Origin: Oligoflexia bacterium
Lineage (GTDB): Bacteria; Bdellovibrionota; Bdellovibrionia; JABDDW01
Length of the DNA stretch: 36,810 nt
Reading direction: 5' to 3'
NCBI GenBank assembly: GCA_020847095.1
Contig: JADLCR010000015.1
Coordinates: 1-36,810 of the forward strand
The notes under the pieces are model-generated. The model worked only from the letters and a program-made list of their open reading frames with translations, was not told where the DNA came from and made no database searches. Each line of letters begins with the position of its first letter. Positions within the stretch are counted from its first letter, which is position 1. Positions 338 through 13,547 of this stretch are shown here, in pieces. Both the position numbers and the translations under genes were made by a program.

Positions 338-432
338 AAAGTAGGTCTGTTTAGCAAAGTCGCGGTTGCATTTCTTGAAGACCAACCGGACGCGCCTAAT
401 CAGTTAATGGGTTCCTCAGATTTGGCACTGCT

Positions 433-464
433 TGAAAAGCAAAATGCCGGGCGAGGCCGGCATT
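433..464 (-). terminator. Rho-independent terminator (minus strand)
   Basis: On the minus strand an 8-bp GC-rich stem, AATGCCGG/CCGGCATT with a six-base loop, is followed by a T-rich tail (TTTTGCTTTTC). It would end transcripts coming from the minus-strand gene pair 2284-3681 and 974-2269, leaving a 3' region of about 500 nt. The plus strand has no matching T tract, so it appears to act in one direction. Confidence 0.65.
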
Positions 465-675
465 GAGTGATCTCCTTTTTGAAGGGAGGTCGATATGAAA
501 AAAACACCCTACTTTTCATATCGGAATAAACGAGCCAAACTTAAGTATTTCATAAACCTTCAATACTTAATGACCTTATTAAGGCTTATCGAAATACTCT
601 TGCGGTTCATCTTTTTCAAACTGGGCTAAGCGGAGTTTACCCAAGCCATCTGAGATCTTAGATGTCACCTCGCCC
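443..675. repeat. 233-bp structured duplicated unit, copy 1
   Basis: A 233-nt segment with an equal-length, highly similar copy at 4356-4588. Similarity continues more weakly for about 100 bp to the left of both. It contains several inverted repeats: AATGCCGG/CCGGCATT (443-464); a hairpin pairing a CTCC stretch with GGAGG; CGATATGAAAA/TTTTCATATCG; and GTATTTC/GAAATAC flanked by GAGCC/GGTTC. Differences between the copies cluster in the predicted loops. The final 45 or so bases are nearly invariant. Read on the minus strand it ends in a terminator; read on the plus strand it carries a 44-codon frame (495-629). It could be a structured RNA, a small protein gene, or both. Confidence 0.75.
495..629 (+). 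CDS. Candidate 44-aa small protein, copy 1
   Basis: ATG at 495 follows a perfect GGAGG (485-489) by five bases, and the frame runs 44 codons to TAA. The peptide starts MKKTPYFSYRNKR, so it is basic at the N-terminus, and then becomes a hydrophobic, probably helical stretch ending RFIFFKLG. The second copy at 4408-4542 keeps the same start, stop and length with no indels. Of 13 differing codons, five changes are synonymous. The Shine-Dalgarno sequence is paired in a hairpin with an upstream CTCC stretch, and the ATG lies in a second hairpin, as in translationally silenced small toxins. Against coding: conservation continues past the stop and differences sit in RNA loops. I do not recognise the family. 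Confidence 0.4.
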   Translation: MKKTPYFSYRNKRAKLKYFINLQYLMTLLRLIEILLRFIFFKLG

Positions 676-3681: not shown

Positions 3682-3864
3682 GTTCGGTAGCCTCCGCCTA
3701 TTTACCCAATCATTTGATCGGTAGGCGGGGCTTTGGTCTTAAGACCTAATGCTGGTTTTTTTGATCAAAAATCGTCTAAAACTTCGACAGCCCCGCTCTC
3801 AAATCCATCCAATTCCTCTCAAAGCGGACGAGCCTGCAATCCCGCTGCTTTGAAAGCTATTTCA

Positions 3865-3986
3865 TTTTAGTAAAGCAGGTTTGCAATTCTCTCCGAGCAA
3901 GACGCCCTCCATGGCTCGACCGATTCGGAGGCCCTCCTGGCATCGGAGCTTGCTCTTCGAGAACCGCAACTCCTGCTTTACTAAAA
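3865..3986. repeat. 122-bp palindromic repeat, copy 1
   Basis: The ends TTTTAGTAAAGCAGG and CCTGCTTTACTAAAA are perfect 15-bp inverted repeats. The interior has further paired segments such as GAGCAAG/CTTGCTC. The copy at 4642-4758 has AGCTGG/CCAGCT where this one has AGCAGG/CCTGCT, a double change that preserves pairing. Confidence 0.85.
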
Positions 3987-4108
3987 GGACCTGTGTCTTA
4001 AAGCAGACGGGCTTTTAGACTTTGAGACGCAGCAACTTCTCGGGGTGAGAATTTTAGCCCTTGGCAGAGCAAGCTTGTCGCAGAGGAGCCTTCGAAGTGT
4101 GTTGCTAT

Positions 4109-4228
4109 TTTGGCATCAGGAGGATCGGGCTTTTTCGTCGGCGGGCTCTCGTGGGCAGGATGCCCGAGTCACGAGCCGAGCCCGGAGGGCGTCCCGCCAG
4201 AGAAAGAGCACGAACTCCTGATGCCAAA
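4109..4228. repeat. 120-bp palindromic repeat, copy 2 (intact ends)
   Basis: This copy has perfect 14-bp inverted ends, TTTGGCATCAGGAG and CTCCTGATGCCAAA. Its 92-bp interior is identical to that of the copy at 4811-4930. Size and ends resemble a small non-autonomous mobile or REP-type element. No target-site duplication was established. Confidence 0.85.
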
Positions 4229-4345
4229 GTTTGCAAGCCCGTCTGCTTTGAGAGTAAGTCTGTTTAACGAAGTCACAATTGCCTCTCTCGAATACCATCC
4301 GGACGCGAAGAATTAGTTTAGGGGCTCATTAGACTTGGCACTACT

Positions 4346-4377
4346 TGAAAAGAAAAATGCCGGGCGAGGCCGGCATT
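4346..4377 (-). terminator. Rho-independent terminator (minus strand)
   Basis: The same 8-bp stem as at 433-464, AATGCCGG/CCGGCATT, is followed on the minus strand by TTTTTCTTTTC. It would end transcripts from the Tad-like gene at 4969-7026, leaving about 600 nt of repeat-filled 3' region that runs antisense to the small frame at 4408-4542. Confidence 0.7.
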
Positions 4378-4588
4378 GAGTGATCTCCTTTTTGAAAGGA
4401 GGTCGATATGAAAAAACAACACTATTTTTCATATCGGAACAAACGAGCCAAACTTAAGTATTTCATAAGCCTTCAAAACCTTATGACTGCAATGCGGCTT
4501 TTTGAAATACTCGTGCGGTTCATCTTTTTCAAACTGGGCTAAGCGGAGTTTACCCAAGCCATCTGAGATCTAAGATGTCGCCTCGCCC
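4356..4588. repeat. 233-bp structured duplicated unit, copy 2
   Basis: This is the second copy of the unit at 443-675, identical in length. All main stems are retained. In the GTATTTC/GAAATAC stem, one A-C mismatch of copy 1 is replaced by a G-C pair, and the CTCC/GGAGG hairpin has an A-U pair where copy 1 has a wobble. Both copies lie in the downstream region of a minus-strand gene, here the Tad-like gene ending at 4969. Confidence 0.75.
4408..4542 (+). CDS. Candidate 44-aa small protein, copy 2
   Basis: ATG at 4408 lies five bases after GGAGG (4398-4402) and the frame has 44 codons. The peptide starts MKKQHYFSYRNKR and ends RFIFFKLG, matching the frame at 495-629 except for eight substitutions. 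In RNA, bases 4383-4391 can pair with 4395-4403 (nine pairs, three-base loop) and would hide the whole Shine-Dalgarno site. The start codon is in a second stem closed by CGATATGAAAA/TTTTCATATCG. A basic head with a hydrophobic helical tail would fit a small membrane-active peptide. The alternative is that the frame is fortuitous within a structured minus-strand RNA. Confidence 0.4.
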   Translation: MKKQHYFSYRNKRAKLKYFISLQNLMTAMRLFEILVRFIFFKLG

Positions 4589-4641
4589 TTCATTAAGACG
4601 CCCTGTCTTCGGGGAAAATCCTTGCTATAAGACACAGGTCC

Positions 4642-4758
4642 TTTTAGTAAAGCTGGGTTGCAATTCTCTCCGAGCAAGACGCCCTCCATGGCTCGACCGA
4701 TTCGGAGGCCCTCCTGGCATCGGAGCTTGCTCTTCGAGAATCACAACTCCAGCTTTAC
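4642..4758. repeat. 122-bp palindromic repeat, copy 2
   Basis: The left arm is TTTTAGTAAAGCTGG and the right arm starts CCAGCTTTAC. The outer part of the right arm has decayed. To the left, GACACAGGTCC extends the unit and matches the inverse of what follows copy 1 at 3987-3997, so the full palindrome was probably longer. Confidence 0.8.
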
Positions 4759-4810
4759 AAATAAACTAAGTCTCAAAGCAAAAGGGCCTGCTTCTGAAGT
4801 GTTTTGCTGT

Positions 4811-4930
4811 TTTGGCATCAGGAGGATCGGGCTTTTTCGTCGGCGGGCTCTCGTGGGCAGGATGCCCGAGTCACGAGCCGAGCCCGGAGGGCGTCCCGCC
4901 AGAGAAAGAGCACGAACTCCTGATGCCAGA
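4811..4930. repeat. 120-bp palindromic repeat, copy 3
   Basis: The ends are TTTGGCATCAGGAG and CTCCTGATGCCAGA, with one mismatch against a perfect inverted pair. The interior is identical to the copy at 4109-4228. It lies 38 bp beyond the stop of the Tad-like gene. Confidence 0.85.
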
Positions 4931-4968
4931 GTTTGCAAGCCCGTCTGCTTTGAGAGGAAGTCTCTTTA

Positions 4969-7026
4969 TCACTGAGGGGGATTACGAATGGAGCCGGTAA
5001 CGCTTCCGCCACCGAGAGGCAAATTACCTTTTGTGAGAAAGCGCCTTGAAACAATTTTCACCGAATAGCCCGAACGCCCGCCTTTTGCCGACTCTTCACC
5101 AATTCCTTCAAAGGTGTTGTAGGTTCCGGGATTAGCCAATCCCTCCGACCAACTGGTGTGAATATTTTCGGGATTGCGGATAAACCAATAAGCGTCGGCA
5201 GGAATGGTCGGGTTACCGGCGCCGCGAAAGTTAAATAAGATTTGATTGCGCACTGTAAAAAACGTTCGGCTTTGAATGGCCTGACGATTTGTTCCGAAGT
5301 CAAAACACTTTTCATTGCAAACATTCTGCGTCACAAAGCTGGCCTGAGGGCCACCACGATCTTCTATCCAACGATTGAACTCGGGGTGAATCGAATAGTA
5401 AGCAGCATCAAAAAGATCCGGACTGATCGCCGCAATCTCTGCCATTCGCACTGGGTAGTTTTGTCTTCCCGAACTGTTGTACACAATTAAATCTTCTTTT
5501 GGATCGCCATCGGATTCTAAAAGTAAGCCGTAATCATCGATCATGTGTTTGGGCATATCGCGATCGTTGGGCCCTCGGCGCGAGTGAACGGCAAAAAGCC
5601 CTGCGGATCTAGAAATTCTTGAGCTCGCGCCATAACGATCACCCGGAAATCGTGAGTAATTGGGATGATTACCGTTGAGACTCGGAATCCCCGAGCCCAT
5701 GCGAATGGGTAAAAGGGGATCTACGCGATCCGCGGTCCCTTGACCTGAGCTTTGCCCGTCGCCGGGCCCCCAAGTTTTTCCGTACCACGGGCCCACGCGC
5801 CCGCCAAATGGCATGGCGTAACTTTCAGCCAAAAGCTCGACGGTTCCAGAACCTAAAGGACTAAAGATCATCCGCGGCTTTGATTTAGCCCGCACATGCA
5901 CGTAAGCCAAGATCCACGGATTTTTTTCAAATCCCACAAGACTTTTAATGGGAGTGTTTCCCGAAGTGGTTTCAAGCGCAAACGCTTGTGCCGATGTGGG
6001 CTGCGCATTGGAATAGTCGGTGGCCGCGTAAAAAGTTGCCGCTTGCACAATTTGATTAGTGGCCGGTGTGTCACGAGGTTTAATAATAATGTCTTGAGGC
6101 TGCCCGTCGCACGTTCCAGTGCCTCCGCGCAAGTCCATGTATTTAACAAAGGCGCGCACTTCAATGGGAGTTAAAAACGGTTGCGTCAGCGAGTGCGAAA
6201 ATTCAAACTCGACTCCAGGCGCATTGGTGCTAGTGAGATTGTTTCTAAATGTTTTCTCCACCGTGGCTCTAACCGAGTTTCCAAATAGATCGGTGAAATC
6301 ATCGGCGCGCCTCGAGGCCAAAAACAAGTTTTGAAGCCTTCTCATAGCTGCCCGTCTATCGCGCACGGCATTTTTGTAGCTCGCCAAAATTTTGAAGGCC
6401 ATCACGTAGTTGTCATAGCCCGCGCGATCGCACTGCCCGGTAATTCGATTGGCGGACTCTCGGCTAAATCGAAAAAGGGGGCCAAGGATTTGACCGACAA
6501 TGGGCAAACGATCCAATCCAAAACTTGGAATCACGGGCAAGCGGTAGTTGATGTTTGAGTTCTTGCACAAATTCTGCAGACTCGTCCGTCGACTCACCGG
6601 GCGGTTGTTTCTGATTTCCCAATTGTTCTCAAACCAAAAAGGGTTTTGAAGACAAACAAGCGGCCCCGTAAAACTCGAATTGACATAGGTCGGCGGCCCA
6701 TCTGACAAAGGGGGCCTCCTGCCGCCTTGATTCGTTGAGTAGGAATCAAAATCACGATTGCGTCCCGCATCAGCAAGAGTCCAAAGGCGCCAGGCCATCA
6801 ACTTCCAAGCCTGGCGAATTTGATAATTCACATGAGCCATGGCATTAAAAATTTCAGCTTGCTTCATGGCTCCGTAGTAAGCGGCAATGTCTGTCGAGTT
6901 TTGCAAATTGATTTTGTCATGGACCAGCACGCCCACATTGATGACCATCGCAAAAAACACGAATAGCACCTGAAACAAAATGGCGATCAAAATCGAAATC
7001 TGTCCTCGAGAATTTCTGCCTTCCAT
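4969..7026 (-). CDS. Tad-like (TadE/TadG-type) membrane-anchored protein
   Basis: This 685-residue protein has a short basic N-terminus (MEGRNSRGQ) followed by a single strong membrane segment (about 10-35). It continues into VLVHDKINLQNSTDIAAYYG, the layout of the Tad/TadG-like N-terminal domain in proteins linked to Flp-type pili. In such proteins the N-terminal helix anchors a large part outside the cytoplasm. The remaining roughly 600 residues (many Arg, Asn, Gly and Pro, scattered cysteines) were not assigned to a domain. No other tad gene (tadA, tadB, rcpA, flp) is in the window, so a pilus role is uncertain. Its 3' region runs into repeat island 2. It is divergent from the gene at 7135. 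Confidence 0.7.
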   Translation of the reverse strand: MEGRNSRGQISILIAILFQVLFVFFAMVINVGVLVHDKINLQNSTDIAAYYGAMKQAEIFNAMAHVNYQIRQAWKLMAWRLWTLADAGRNRDFDSYSTNQGGRRPPLSDGPPTYVNSSFTGPLVCLQNPFWFENNWEIRNNRPVSRRTSLQNLCKNSNINYRLPVIPSFGLDRLPIVGQILGPLFRFSRESANRITGQCDRAGYDNYVMAFKILASYKNAVRDRRAAMRRLQNLFLASRRADDFTDLFGNSVRATVEKTFRNNLTSTNAPGVEFEFSHSLTQPFLTPIEVRAFVKYMDLRGGTGTCDGQPQDIIIKPRDTPATNQIVQAATFYAATDYSNAQPTSAQAFALETTSGNTPIKSLVGFEKNPWILAYVHVRAKSKPRMIFSPLGSGTVELLAESYAMPFGGRVGPWYGKTWGPGDGQSSGQGTADRVDPLLPIRMGSGIPSLNGNHPNYSRFPGDRYGASSRISRSAGLFAVHSRRGPNDRDMPKHMIDDYGLLLESDGDPKEDLIVYNSSGRQNYPVRMAEIAAISPDLFDAAYYSIHPEFNRWIEDRGGPQASFVTQNVCNEKCFDFGTNRQAIQSRTFFTVRNQILFNFRGAGNPTIPADAYWFIRNPENIHTSWSEGLANPGTYNTFEGIGEESAKGGRSGYSVKIVSRRFLTKGNLPLGGGSVTGSIRNPPQ

Positions 7027-9092: not shown

Positions 9093-9218
9093 CGATGGCG
9101 CGCCCGCGGCAAAGCCGCAAGGGCACACTGGAAAAGGGTTTTAAGACCAAATCCAGAGGGAAGCGGAGTGAAATTCTCCCACGGACCCGCCACTGTAAAG
9201 TCAGGAGACCGGCCATCG
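9093..9218 (+). promoter_or_regulatory. Cobalamin riboswitch
   Basis: The conserved core is clear: GGGAAGCGGAGTGAAATTC, then GGACCCGCCACTGT, then the B12-box segment AGTCAGGAGACCGGCC (9199-9214). The closing stem pairs CGATGGC (9093-9099) with GCCATCG (9212-9218). It lies immediately before the BtuB-type receptor, the classical target. Just downstream GAG-TTA (9218-9224) can pair with TAACTC (9235-9240) around the AAGG ribosome site, and no terminator is visible, so control is probably at translation. Confidence 0.95.
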
Positions 9219-9243
9219 AGGTTAAATAGAAAGGTAACTCTTC

Positions 9244-10992
9244 GTGGACCTAAGAGTTCTGGCTCTTCTCATTTTTTCGTCTCTGACCCATGCTCAAACT
9301 GTGTTTGAGCCGCCAATGCAAGTATCGGGCGACGCCGTCGATCGATTTCAGTTTCGTCAAACCCATCGGCCCGTCGAAACAATCAAGCGTGAACAATTGC
9401 GGCTTGATACAAAAACTCAGTTAAGTGACAGCCTCAATCAGCTGCCCGGAGTGCAATCGCGATTTGAAGGAAGCCCTCTCATCAGTATTCGCGGCTCCCA
9501 AAGCTCATTTCGAAATCTAGTTCTTCAAGACGGAGTTCCTTTAAGTTTTGCAGATGGCATCGGATTTAACCCGCTTTTCATTGCCGATGAATCACTAGAA
9601 TCAATGACCATTCTCAAGGGTCCGGGATCTTCAGAGCTGGGTCGAGATGCCATGCATGGAGCCGTGGCGTTTCGTTCAAAGATTTTGCAAAGTCCAGAGG
9701 TTCGACTCAGCGCGGGCTCTTTTGAAAGTAAGAAGGTTTATTTAGCCACGCCTCTTACTCAAGGTCCCGTTCGCTCTCAAGCAACTTTGTATCACACCAC
9801 TGCTTCGGGCTATCGCCCACGGTCGGATAAGGATTTAAAACGCGCCACCTTACGAGTTTTTCAAAACGCTGATTCATACCGCTGGTCAGTTTTTTCTCTT
9901 GGAGCCCAAGAGATCGGATCAGCGCCCGGATCCACTTATTTTTCTTCTGCCGACAGCTTCAATAATTGGGGAATCATGTCCGGAGCTTCGGCGCAAATTC
10001 AAATCTTTGAATCCCTTGAGGTGCAGCCTCATATTGGATTTAAGAAAATTGACCAACGACCCGGGAGTACAGCACCCAACATCACAACCGGCGGAAACTT
10101 CGGCCTGGGAATAAAAAAGACCTTAGAAAATTACTCCGTCGATGGCTTCTACGAAGGCTACAACGAGACTTTTACAGCCAGTTACTTTCCCGGCGGTGCG
10201 CTTAGCCAGCAAACCCATGATTTTGGCGGAGGCCTCCGATGGGACTTCAATGAAAGCCTCACGCTTCTTGCTTCGGCTCGCTACTCAGGTTCCGAACAAG
10301 GCGCGCTTAGCCCCGCCATCGGACTTGTGGGCATGAGTTCATCAGAAGAAAAATTTTTCGCCTCCTACGCCGAGGGTCACCACCCCCCAAGTTTATCGCA
10401 AAAATTTGGCGAGTCTTTGGGCTTTCGTGGAAATCCCGCGCTAGTGGGCGAAAAAAGCCGAGAGCTCAGTTTAGGTTTTGAAAAATCTTGGTCCGAAGTC
10501 ACCACTTACTTTGAGGCTTTTTCCAGAGACAGCCTAAACCTCATTGAAAATCAAAATTTTTCCGGCACCTACATCCCACAGAATATTTCAAGCGCCCGGG
10601 CCACCGGTTTTGAATCGACAACCCGTTGGAATCCCAATTCATGGATCTTGATGGGATCCCTGAGTTACCTCAAAAATGAAAACACCCAAACCAAAGAAGC
10701 CTTGACCTACTCTCCCGCCATTCAGGCCAGTCTCAGCATCGGACAAGTTCTTGATCGATGGAGCTGGACTCTGAGCGAAACCTATTGGGGCGATTACTTC
10801 GCCCGCAACACCAATAATCAATTGGCTAATCTAGGGCAATGGAACACGCTGGATTTGCAGCTTGGCTATCAGGTCGACAAAATTCAGCTTCTCTTCGCCA
10901 TTAACAATATTTTTAATCAACCTAGAGAGCTCACATTGGGTTATCCTGAGGCTCCAAGAAATTTTCAACTCACGGTCTCGGGGGTGTTTTAA
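9244..10992 (+). CDS. btuB: TonB-dependent outer-membrane receptor, BtuB type
   Basis: This is the outer-membrane vitamin B12 receptor, as judged by the cobalamin riboswitch before it and the B12 ABC genes after it. The 582 residues begin with a signal peptide (about 1-17). The N-terminal plug follows (about 40-145), with LRLDTKTQLSDSLNQLPGV, ISIRGSQSSFRNLVLQDG and ILKGPGSSELGRDAMHGAV. The 22-strand-type barrel ends in a C-terminal Phe, as expected for assembly by the BAM complex. An obvious TonB box was not identified. The start is GTG at 9244 with AAGG eight bases upstream; this is the only start close to the riboswitch. The stop overlaps the next ATG by one base. Confidence 0.9.
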   Translation: MDLRVLALLIFSSLTHAQTVFEPPMQVSGDAVDRFQFRQTHRPVETIKREQLRLDTKTQLSDSLNQLPGVQSRFEGSPLISIRGSQSSFRNLVLQDGVPLSFADGIGFNPLFIADESLESMTILKGPGSSELGRDAMHGAVAFRSKILQSPEVRLSAGSFESKKVYLATPLTQGPVRSQATLYHTTASGYRPRSDKDLKRATLRVFQNADSYRWSVFSLGAQEIGSAPGSTYFSSADSFNNWGIMSGASAQIQIFESLEVQPHIGFKKIDQRPGSTAPNITTGGNFGLGIKKTLENYSVDGFYEGYNETFTASYFPGGALSQQTHDFGGGLRWDFNESLTLLASARYSGSEQGALSPAIGLVGMSSSEEKFFASYAEGHHPPSLSQKFGESLGFRGNPALVGEKSRELSLGFEKSWSEVTTYFEAFSRDSLNLIENQNFSGTYIPQNISSARATGFESTTRWNPNSWILMGSLSYLKNENTQTKEALTYSPAIQASLSIGQVLDRWSWTLSETYWGDYFARNTNNQLANLGQWNTLDLQLGYQVDKIQLLFAINNIFNQPRELTLGYPEAPRNFQLTVSGVF

Positions 10993-11837
10993 TGATTAAA
11001 CTTTTGCTTTTAGCTGTTATCGCCCAAGGTCAGATTAAATTTGAAGGTTCTGTTAGTGCACCCGTGTTTAGCAAAGTCGAAGGGGCAACACAAAAAGCGA
11101 TTTCTTTAAGCCCCGCCATTACGGAAATCATCTACTACATGGGCCTGCAGGGGATGCTTGTGGGCACAACCGAGCACTCTGATTTTCCGGAAGAGGCCAA
11201 AAAACTCACCACCGTGGGCCCCTACGGTCGACCAGACTACGAAAAAATTCTGTCGCTTAAACCCAATCTCGTTTTAGTTCCTAACGAGGGACCCCAAGAA
11301 ATTCAAAAGCGCTTGAAATCCACCAAACTTCCGCTAGCGGTGGTGCGCATGCGAAGGCTCAACGAGATTCCAGATGCGGGAAAGCTCATTGGCTGGCTAC
11401 TGGGCAATGGTTCAATCGGCGAAAGCTTTCACCGTGCGTGGCACACAAAACTTGAACAAATTAAATCGTCATTGAAAAAGCCCAAAACCAAGCCGATCGT
11501 TTTTGTTCAAATTCAAACTTCGCCTTTGATGGGTGTTGGTCAAAACACATTTATCGATGACATGATCACATTCTGTGGCGGCGAAAATGCTCTTAAAGAA
11601 CAAGAGGGTTACGCAAAATCTTCAGTCGAAAGCACCTTGATTAAAAGAATCACTCACCTTGTTTTGGCCGAACATTTTCAAACACCCGAAATAGAGGCGC
11701 GCACCAAAAATGACTGGCTAAAATTTCGTCCGAAAGGTGATTTAAAAATTATTAAGGTCGACCCAAATACATTCACGCGCCCCGGGCCTCGCCTTATTAA
11801 AAGCATCGAGCAGTTATGCCAAGACTTAAGAAATTAG
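10992..11837 (+). CDS. btuF: Periplasmic B12-binding protein, BtuF type
   Basis: A 281-residue substrate-binding protein of the helical-backbone class used for B12, heme and siderophores. It begins with a short signal peptide (about 1-13), then ISLSPAITEIIYYMGLQGMLVGTT and PYGRPDYEKILSLKPNLVLVPNEG, the standard first-lobe pattern. A long linker helix and a second lobe follow. Operon position after the riboswitch and receptor supports B12 as ligand. The start overlaps the receptor stop (TAATG) and the end overlaps the permease start by 22 bases. The signal sequence is short, so processing is inferred. Confidence 0.87.
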   Translation: MIKLLLLAVIAQGQIKFEGSVSAPVFSKVEGATQKAISLSPAITEIIYYMGLQGMLVGTTEHSDFPEEAKKLTTVGPYGRPDYEKILSLKPNLVLVPNEGPQEIQKRLKSTKLPLAVVRMRRLNEIPDAGKLIGWLLGNGSIGESFHRAWHTKLEQIKSSLKKPKTKPIVFVQIQTSPLMGVGQNTFIDDMITFCGGENALKEQEGYAKSSVESTLIKRITHLVLAEHFQTPEIEARTKNDWLKFRPKGDLKIIKVDPNTFTRPGPRLIKSIEQLCQDLRN

Positions 11838-12814
11838 CCCTCGGGCTGCTTTTTTTGTGTTCGATTTTCGCTTCTCTCAGCGCTGGCTCAATGAGCATTG
11901 AACTCAAAGACTATCTTCAGTGGTTGCTTTCTCCCGAGCTTTTAGACGAACAGGTCATGCTGGTGATCAGCGAGCTTCGCATGCCCAGACTTGTGGCCAC
12001 CATTCTTGTTGGTCTTTCTCTTGGGTCTTGTGGCCTAGTACTTCAATCCGTTCTTCGAAATCCGTTAGGTGAGCCCTATACTTTAGGACTTTCCGGAGGC
12101 GGGGCTCTGGGAGCCGTCATTGCCTTGGGGCTAAACCTAGAACCTTGGTATCTGTGGATTCCGGGGTTTTCTTTTTTGGGCTGTTGCCTTTCGGCGGTCA
12201 TTGTTTTGGGCCTATCAAGTCGCACCTTCGGATTTCAAAGCCGAAGCATTATATTGTTTGGAATCATGGTCAGCTTGTTTTTCGGAGCCTTGGTCGTGAC
12301 AATCATGTCTTTACTCAATCCTGAAAAACTGCAAGCGGCACTAAATTGGTTGTTGGGTGAATTTGGAACCACTCGGGACCGATGGTCTTATGCGCTTTTC
12401 TTACCGATGGTCTTTTTATATTTCATTTTGCTCAAACTCGCGCCCCATTTGGACGCTTTATCCCTTGGTGATTCGCGAGCTCTCTCGCTTGGCACCGGTC
12501 CTAAAACTTATCGTATACGTTTTGTCATTGTGGCCACTCTCATGACTGCAATGTCGGTAACCGTTTCGGGGCTCATTGGATTTATCGGCCTTGTCTCCCC
12601 CCACATGGCCCGACGCTTAACAAAAAGTTCTAAGCACCGCGGACTTTTAATTTATTCGGCACTCATTGGCGCAAGCCTACTCACCTGGGCCGACGCCACC
12701 GGAAGACTCTTGAGTCCTGATCGAGAAATACCCGCGGGAAGTATTGCCGCGCTCTTAGGGGCGCCGCTTTTAGTTTTTTTACTGATGAGGCCTGGCCATG
12801 CTCAAGCTGATTGA
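11816..12814 (+). CDS. btuC: B12 ABC transporter permease, BtuC type
   Basis: A 332-residue integral membrane protein of the FecCD/BtuC family. It has the family sequence RMPRLVATILVGLSLGSCGLVLQSVLRNPLGEPYTLGLSGGGALGA (a run of about 45 residues starting near residue 55). Further membrane helices follow, with GLIGFIGLVSPHMARRL near residue 260, the cytoplasmic coupling region that contacts the ATPase. Roughly ten hydrophobic segments are visible, as expected. It overlaps the binding-protein gene by 22 bases and the ATPase gene by 17, so the three subunits are made together. Confidence 0.9.
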   Translation: MPRLKKLALGLLFLCSIFASLSAGSMSIELKDYLQWLLSPELLDEQVMLVISELRMPRLVATILVGLSLGSCGLVLQSVLRNPLGEPYTLGLSGGGALGAVIALGLNLEPWYLWIPGFSFLGCCLSAVIVLGLSSRTFGFQSRSIILFGIMVSLFFGALVVTIMSLLNPEKLQAALNWLLGEFGTTRDRWSYALFLPMVFLYFILLKLAPHLDALSLGDSRALSLGTGPKTYRIRFVIVATLMTAMSVTVSGLIGFIGLVSPHMARRLTKSSKHRGLLIYSALIGASLLTWADATGRLLSPDREIPAGSIAALLGAPLLVFLLMRPGHAQAD

Positions 12815-13547
12815 CGTCACCGCGGGCTACGGAAAAAATTTTGCCATTAAAAATACTCAATTTGAATTGGGAGCTGGCGAGATTCACGGTCTTATTGGAA
12901 TAAATGGCGCCGGCAAGAGCACTCTTCTCAAGGCGATCCTCGGGACCGTTCCGGTTTTTGGGGGAAAAATTGAATTTCAAAACCAACCTCTTCATCAACA
13001 ATCCCATTTTGAACGGGCACGTTGTGTTGGGCTGCACGATTCGTCACAAGAATTTATATTTTCGTCGTCTGTTCATGAGCTCTTGGAACTGAGTCTTAGA
13101 CTTCATCACGATTCGCAGAAATTAAAAACGGTTGTTAAACTTTTTGGCCTTGAGGACCTACTTGGCCGAGACGTTTTGAGTCTCTCAAGTGGCGAAAGGC
13201 AGCGAGCCCTTCTGGCGCACGCCTTTTGTGCAAACCCGAGACTTCTGATGTTGGACGAGCCCTTTACCCATTTAGATTGGCACCGCCAATTGGATTTAAT
13301 TGAAGTCATCAAAGAATGGCGTCATTTAACCGGTTGTTCATTTTTAATAGCACTTCATGAACTTCAATGGGCCATAAACTTAGCCGATCGTCTAAGTGTG
13401 ATTGATCAAGGTAAGATTCTAGTCTCTGGCCCACCAGATAAAGTGCTTCCCAACCCTCAGGTCGGCGAAACGTTTGCTTTTCAGGCTCTAATTGACGAAA
13501 ATCCTATAGACGGAAGTCGTCGACTGACACTGGGGAGACGCCAATGA
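12798..13547 (+). CDS. btuD: B12 ABC transporter ATPase, BtuD type
   Basis: The 249-residue nucleotide-binding subunit has Walker A GINGAGKST (34-42), the signature LSSGERQRALLAHA (about 128-141), Walker B LLMLDEP (about 148-154) and the switch His in IALHE (about 187). The Q-loop region is less standard, reading CVGLHDSSQEF around residue 72. Family members in FecCD-type systems couple ATP hydrolysis to passage of B12 or iron chelates, and the riboswitch argues for B12. The stop overlaps the tonB start by four bases (ATGA). Confidence 0.88.
   Translation: MLKLIDVTAGYGKNFAIKNTQFELGAGEIHGLIGINGAGKSTLLKAILGTVPVFGGKIEFQNQPLHQQSHFERARCVGLHDSSQEFIFSSSVHELLELSLRLHHDSQKLKTVVKLFGLEDLLGRDVLSLSSGERQRALLAHAFCANPRLLMLDEPFTHLDWHRQLDLIEVIKEWRHLTGCSFLIALHELQWAINLADRLSVIDQGKILVSGPPDKVLPNPQVGETFAFQALIDENPIDGSRRLTLGRRQ

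Follow-up and report, generated by a model that had tools for sequence, protein, structure and literature searches.

A putative sigma-54-driven family of type I toxin-antitoxin-like modules in Bdellovibrionota

Reports of type I toxin-antitoxin (TA) systems come from few phyla, in part since their peptides are too short for annotation, and according to a 2025 paper such systems were known only in Proteobacteria, Firmicutes and Tenericutes before a cyanobacterial system was described (PMC12390103). The AapA/IsoA systems of Helicobacter and Campylobacter illustrate how tightly such a toxin can be held: the AapA3 mRNA forms metastable hairpins during transcription, is locked by pairing of its 5' and 3' ends, is activated by 3' trimming and is neutralised by an antisense RNA (PMC6733600). 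The structure of the AapA1 peptide has been deposited as 6GIG (PMC10537873). Here we analyse a 36,810-nt stretch of an Oligoflexia bacterium (contig JADLCR010000015.1 of assembly GCA_020847095.1, hereafter the window), which carries two copies of a 243-bp unit, copy 1 at 433-675 and copy 2 at 4346-4588, that are 91% identical and contain a small frame; no third copy exists in the 2.7-Mb, 112-contig host genome. Each unit is, in our judgement, probably a type-I-TA-like module, and together with its relatives throughout the predatory Bdellovibrio lineage it looks like part of a family of membrane peptides under RNA control that has gone unrecognised. A literature search, whose coverage left out most subscription papers, found no type I TA system in Bdellovibrio or under sigma-54 control, and the sequences suggest a new sigma-54-driven family of this kind. 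Any claim to a new phylum is partly taxonomic, because Bdellovibrio was long counted among the Proteobacteria.

The family came to light only through a combination of RNA and peptide models. A DNA search among 60 relatives led to a single genome, G029 (UBA3535, Bdellovibrionota), with two tandem copies downstream of proS, whose peptide MKYQKYISYRRYLRVLKSFVDLIMAVGKLIWFACLLFAKIFGP is related to that of the window and shares with it invariant M, K, Y, S, Y, R, L and K residues, among others. A covariance model, R1, built from seven 5' regions, then gave units in many genomes of the class, and a peptide profile built from 18 members reached about 40 genomes at E <= 0.01, with clear units in about 30 once the surroundings were inspected; these include the genus of Bdellovibrio itself and families outside the class. 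A second covariance model, R2, built from Bdellovibrio-type units, matched 47 of the 144 genomes of the class. A frame of 24-75 amino acids (aa) behind a Shine-Dalgarno (SD) sequence was present in 35 of the 40 strong R2 matches fetched and in most of 17 more. The covariance models render this family searchable; single genomes hold as many as about ten copies, and the phylum is one of predatory bacteria.

The RNA of copy 2 is predicted to fold at -80.5 kcal/mol (z = -5.7 against shuffles; -4.4 for copy 1) in three layers, namely an outer stem between the ends of the unit, a hairpin that hides the SD and a hairpin that hides the AUG. An initial annotation of copy 2 had described the frame, the SD hairpin and an opposite-strand terminator, all of which are real, but had overlooked the end-to-end pairing of the unit. 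Our recount agrees with it that start, stop, SD and SD hairpin are retained in copy 2 although 18 of the 132 bases of the two 44-aa frames differ. The SD pairs with GATCTCC at 4382-4388, and the outer stem runs inward, with interruptions, to GAGATC at 4565-4570. The same bases, 4362-4370, are used by the closing stem and by a local 5' hairpin, which makes these alternative pairings.

This architecture holds well beyond the window. When the best stem between a unit's own 5' and 3' regions was compared with stems between regions taken from different units, the closing stem scored 30.5 against 19.4 (p = 4e-28, n = 52) and, in a repeat with 35 further units, 27.2 against 20.2 (p = 6e-9). These values overstate independence since the units are related to each other, yet the effect is obvious from the closing arms, which are entirely different between lineages, for instance GGCGCCGGTTCGGCGCC/GGCGCCGAACCGGCGCC in G076, TGCCAGCAC/GTGCTGGCA in G143 and GACTCAATAGGTC/GGCCTATTGAGTC in G118. 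Most 5' arms begin near -60, and most 3' arms lie 45-105 nt past the stop codon. Over all 87 units the same comparison gave p = 1e-12 for the AUG hairpin and p = 6e-8 for the SD hairpin; in the three local hairpins of the first seven units, 95% of cells are paired. Judged from these alignments, the RNA design is kept by compensatory change, and the SD and AUG hairpins covary. Many units also share a short conserved motif in the 3' untranslated region around GGGCTTTAAACCC / ATGGGACTTAAAATCCC, e.g. G017a (L151) and G050 (L207), which is possibly a processing or regulatory site.

The frame within this RNA has every appearance of a gene. Across 13 groups of close relatives, the ratio of non-synonymous to synonymous substitution (dN/dS) is 0.30 overall and 0.25 beyond codon 12, i.e. 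outside the start hairpin, which therefore cannot account for the conservation; the substitution pattern indicates that the frame is under purifying selection and encodes a peptide. Members are 31-47 aa long with a net charge of +2 to +9 and follow the pattern M(K/N)xxxxxSYRRxxxxLKxxLxLxLVLLKxLLLxxKL. The mean Kyte-Doolittle (KD) value of their hydrophobic stretch is 1.4-2.6, and the window peptide is predicted to form one helix over residues 4-43 (mean predicted local distance difference test score, pLDDT, 82). In size and hydrophobic helix, they agree with the general description of type I toxins as peptides of less than about 60 aa. The SYR motif is the most constant part of the peptide because its codons (TCN TAT CGG) base-pair with the start codon.

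In anatomy, the units match the toxin mRNAs of AapA and Hok style, a likeness that we do not take for homology. With AapA/IsoA they share a short cationic helical peptide, several chromosomal copies, 5'-3' long-distance pairing of the mRNA, sequential hairpins that hide the SD or ribosome-binding site (RBS), and a Ser codon near codon 8-9 inside a hairpin (PMC6733600); the long-distance interaction is borne out by the comparison of own and mismatched arms above. Concealment of the RBS in mRNA structure, a common, non-universal trait of type I systems, is likewise seen here in the covarying hairpins. Unlike AapA/IsoA, most of the relatives have a sigma-54 promoter, they belong to a different phylum, and their antisense terminator shares its site with the 5' hairpin of the toxin mRNA itself. 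No AapA chain was matched up to E = 10 when the peptide profile (A5) was compared with PDB chains. Hok/Sok resembles the units in its 5' metastable hairpin, which overlaps the 5' arm of a 5'-3' fold-back, and in an antisense RNA over the translation initiation region, which is predicted here; it differs in that the units have no plasmid link, and a mok-like overlapping leader frame was not noticed, no search having been aimed at one. Among 18 members there was no Pfam match to the Hok family. The initial annotation had likened the locus to the enterobacterial Ldr and Ibs repeats. Ldr/Rdl and Ibs/Sib do resemble the units in being chromosomal repeats, tandem or dispersed, that each carry a small hydrophobic peptide and an antisense RNA (again predicted here), but there is no sequence match, and 5'-3' closure is the dominant feature of the present units; by that long-distance pairing AapA/IsoA or Hok/Sok stands nearer. 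The type-I-TA-like reading itself gains strength from the comparison of relatives, through the purifying selection on the frame, the covarying hairpins and the antisense terminator retained in many units. MsoT1/MsoA1 of Microcystis is comparable as a type I TA-like module outside the classical phyla, yet its organism is unrelated and sigma-54 control goes unmentioned in the available part of its description (PMC12390103).

The predicted antisense side of the module rests on a terminator. Scored above 16, such an element faces the antisense direction in 33 of 60 units; shuffled sequences yield 3.5, and the sense direction of the real units 16. Both window copies have it just upstream of the SD, and the strong minus-strand terminator with a T-tract that had been described for copy 2 was found again, reading AATGCCGGCCTCGCCCGGCATT + TTTCTTTT.

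On the sense side, 34 of 51 units have a sigma-54-type GG-N10-GC motif ahead of their 5' arm (9.8 +- 2.5 in shuffled sequence), and among spacings from N5 to N14 only N10 is clearly above shuffles. With the R2 units added, the motif is present in 67 of 86 units against 17, a count that is biased by the R2 model itself containing the motif. The transcript is predicted to begin where the 5' arm does, and an rpoN (sigma-54) gene is present in both G000 and G029. Further upstream, the palindrome TCCG-N5-CGGA is exact in 10 of 61 units where 0.2 are expected, with N5 the favoured spacing; it lies about 140 nt before the ATG (range 120-145, about 120 nt in G130) and is carried by G029, G130, G142, G017, G118 and G076. 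It is likely an activator site. Two genes upstream of the tandem units of G029, L009 has a gene for an NtrX-like sigma-54-type response regulator (10314-11705, minus strand), a possible candidate for the activator in that genome.

These elements can be joined into one mechanism. An mRNA of about 230 nt (predicted at about 4360-4590 for copy 2) would encode one small cationic membrane-helix peptide. Local hairpins formed during transcription would hide the SD first and the AUG next, and the 3' end, once made, would pair with the 5' end to give a locked, presumably untranslated form, as in the AapA/Hok strategy, until 3' trimming activates it. The 5' hairpin would serve twice: as a folding intermediate in the sense RNA and, with its base pairs read from the opposite strand, as the terminator of an antisense RNA. 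This RNA, the presumed antitoxin, would extend over the ribosome-binding region at the least. Most relatives would switch on toxin synthesis under some stress, through a sigma-54 promoter and an enhancer-binding activator. The sequences directly show the coding selection, the three pairing elements, the antisense terminator and the sigma-54 spacing in relatives, from which the antisense RNA, release by 3' trimming, membrane toxicity and the inducing signal are inferred. The peptides are most likely toxins, presumably acting on the membrane and restrained by the antisense RNA. We lean, by a little, towards the broader proposal of a large undescribed class of type I TA systems in predatory Bdellovibrionota that are transcribed by sigma-54, activator-dependent, closed 5' to 3' and equipped with a dual-role 5' hairpin. 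If true, placing a type I toxin mRNA under sigma-54 would link the switch to an activator of its own.

Several observations weigh against this proposal. In the window copies the promoter-like element reads TTGGCACT-NC-TTGAAAAG, i.e. GG-N8-GA and not GG-N10-GC, so that the spacing is 2 nt short and GA stands in place of GC; a box spacing of 8-9 nt is likewise found in several units of family f3 (L151, L158, L167). Neither window copy has the TCCG-N5-CGGA palindrome. An antisense terminator cannot be recognised in about half of the units, including those of G017/G142 and G118 and the majority outside the class. Nor is a sigma-70-type antisense promoter enriched (best score 7.85 against 7.66 shuffled), and -10-like sites cluster at ATG+16 to +25 in several groups, where they overlap conserved codons. 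No known toxin family proved similar, either in Pfam, NCBIfam, PADLOC or PHROGs, where Ldr, Ibs, TisB, Fst and other curated type I toxins gave no significant match, or in PDB sequences, and Rfam matched neither the window unit nor 12 related loci.

Some of these points would suit a different function, in which the peptide is a small sigma-54-regulated membrane stress peptide and no toxin, its mRNA being silent by folding until processed or opened by a signal, and antisense transcription, if any, merely tuning it. The sigma-54 promoters and upstream palindrome do indicate a regulated response, and the terminator-less half of the units and the unenriched antisense promoter agree with it. We nevertheless regard it as unlikely, as the antisense terminator is tenfold above its chance frequency and toxins typically show the tight silencing in several layers, the tandem duplications and the decayed copies seen here. 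Chromosomal type I toxins usually occur as tandem duplicates along with decayed copies, and the present units fit that pattern: G043c has an early stop, and the tails of G014, G062a and G028e are altered or frameshifted. Loss of the frame with retention of the stems had been named beforehand as an outcome that would refute the toxin-locus reading; it occurs in a minority of decayed relatives and is not the rule.

The terminator itself could have a more trivial origin in the window, where the minus strand encodes the neighbours to the right and a convergent transcript of the gene at 4969-7026 could end at it, a dedicated antisense RNA being unneeded. This we hold to be improbable, since the element is kept in place where both flanking genes are co-directional, as in the G029a/b units between proS and an rlmB-like gene. 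Terminator-bearing units followed by a co-directional gene (G029b, G029d, G029e, G007a, G043 and G013c, with neighbour coordinates from crude calls of the longest open reading frame) argue that it is more than the tail of a convergent gene. The least probable reading makes the frame incidental to a structured non-coding RNA or to a small mobile repeat. The strong folding, the multiple dispersed copies and the 173-bp repeats beside the window copies would fit such an element, but the codon-level selection in the 13 groups already tells against it; frame, SD and start are moreover retained while nearly all stem bases change, protein models built from some units detect others, and common ends or insertion sites were not seen. 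The type-I-TA-like module remains the best explanation, and the features behind it are collected in Table 1.

Table 1. Positions of the unit's elements and flanking repeats in the window.
Feature	Position	Strand	Remarks
Peptide gene, copy 2	4408..4542	+	44 aa, MKKQHYFSYRNKRAKLKYFISLQNLMTAMRLFEILVRFIFFKLG, net charge +9, predicted single helix
Peptide gene, copy 1	495..629	+	44 aa, MKKTPYFSYRNKRAKLKYFINLQYLMTLLRLIEILLRFIFFKLG
Whole unit, copy 1	433..675	+	closing arms 449-456 and 668-675
Promoter-like element, copy 2	4335..4352	+	TTGGCACT-AC-TTGAAAAG, site of the sigma-54 -24/-12 promoter in relatives
Promoter-like element, copy 1	422..439	+	
Intrinsic terminator of predicted antisense RNA, copy 2	4348..4377	-	hairpin 4356-4377; T-tract 4355 down to 4348
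Antisense terminator hairpin, copy 1	443..464	-	
5' arm of closing stem, copy 2	4362..4370	+	GGGCGAGGC
3' arm of closing stem, copy 2	4580..4588	+	GCCTCGCCC
SD-hiding hairpin, copy 2	4382..4402	+	anti-SD 4382-4391, SD GGAGG 4398-4402
Start-codon hairpin, copy 2	4403..4437	+	13 bp, 4403-4415 with 4425-4437
Flanking repeats, 173- and 123-nt kinds	4094-4266, 4796-4968, 142-274, 896-958 and 3862-3984, 4639-4761		

A number of search results were set aside. The weak protein matches of the first profile (L013-L026) were dropped, the unit being missing around them, and weak matches of R1 (G134, G002, G088, G226, G294, G127) and of R2 (G040, G021b, G062d) were counted as false, with the gene missing. 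An exact-hairpin pattern gave 84 stretches in GTDB contigs and 4 in IMG/VR; the gene is present in the UBA3535 copies only, and the remaining stretches look like chance after a screen for short frames from the hairpin ATG. Peptide-based scans of genome contigs, viral contigs, plasmids and phages gave no matches.

The peptide units of the window are flanked by two kinds of strongly palindromic non-coding repeat, of 173 nt and 123 nt, the former matched at nine genomic sites, most of them on contigs C15 and C25. A mobile element of the repetitive extragenic palindromic (REP) or insertion sequence (IS) type was considered for the unit and rejected, as the unit lies outside the 173-bp repeats on its flanks. 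Elsewhere in the window, a cobalamin riboswitch (Rfam RF00174, 42.9 bits) at 9124-9231 on the plus strand is closely followed on its 3' side by genes for an apparent TonB-dependent receptor and ABC-type uptake (9244-13547).
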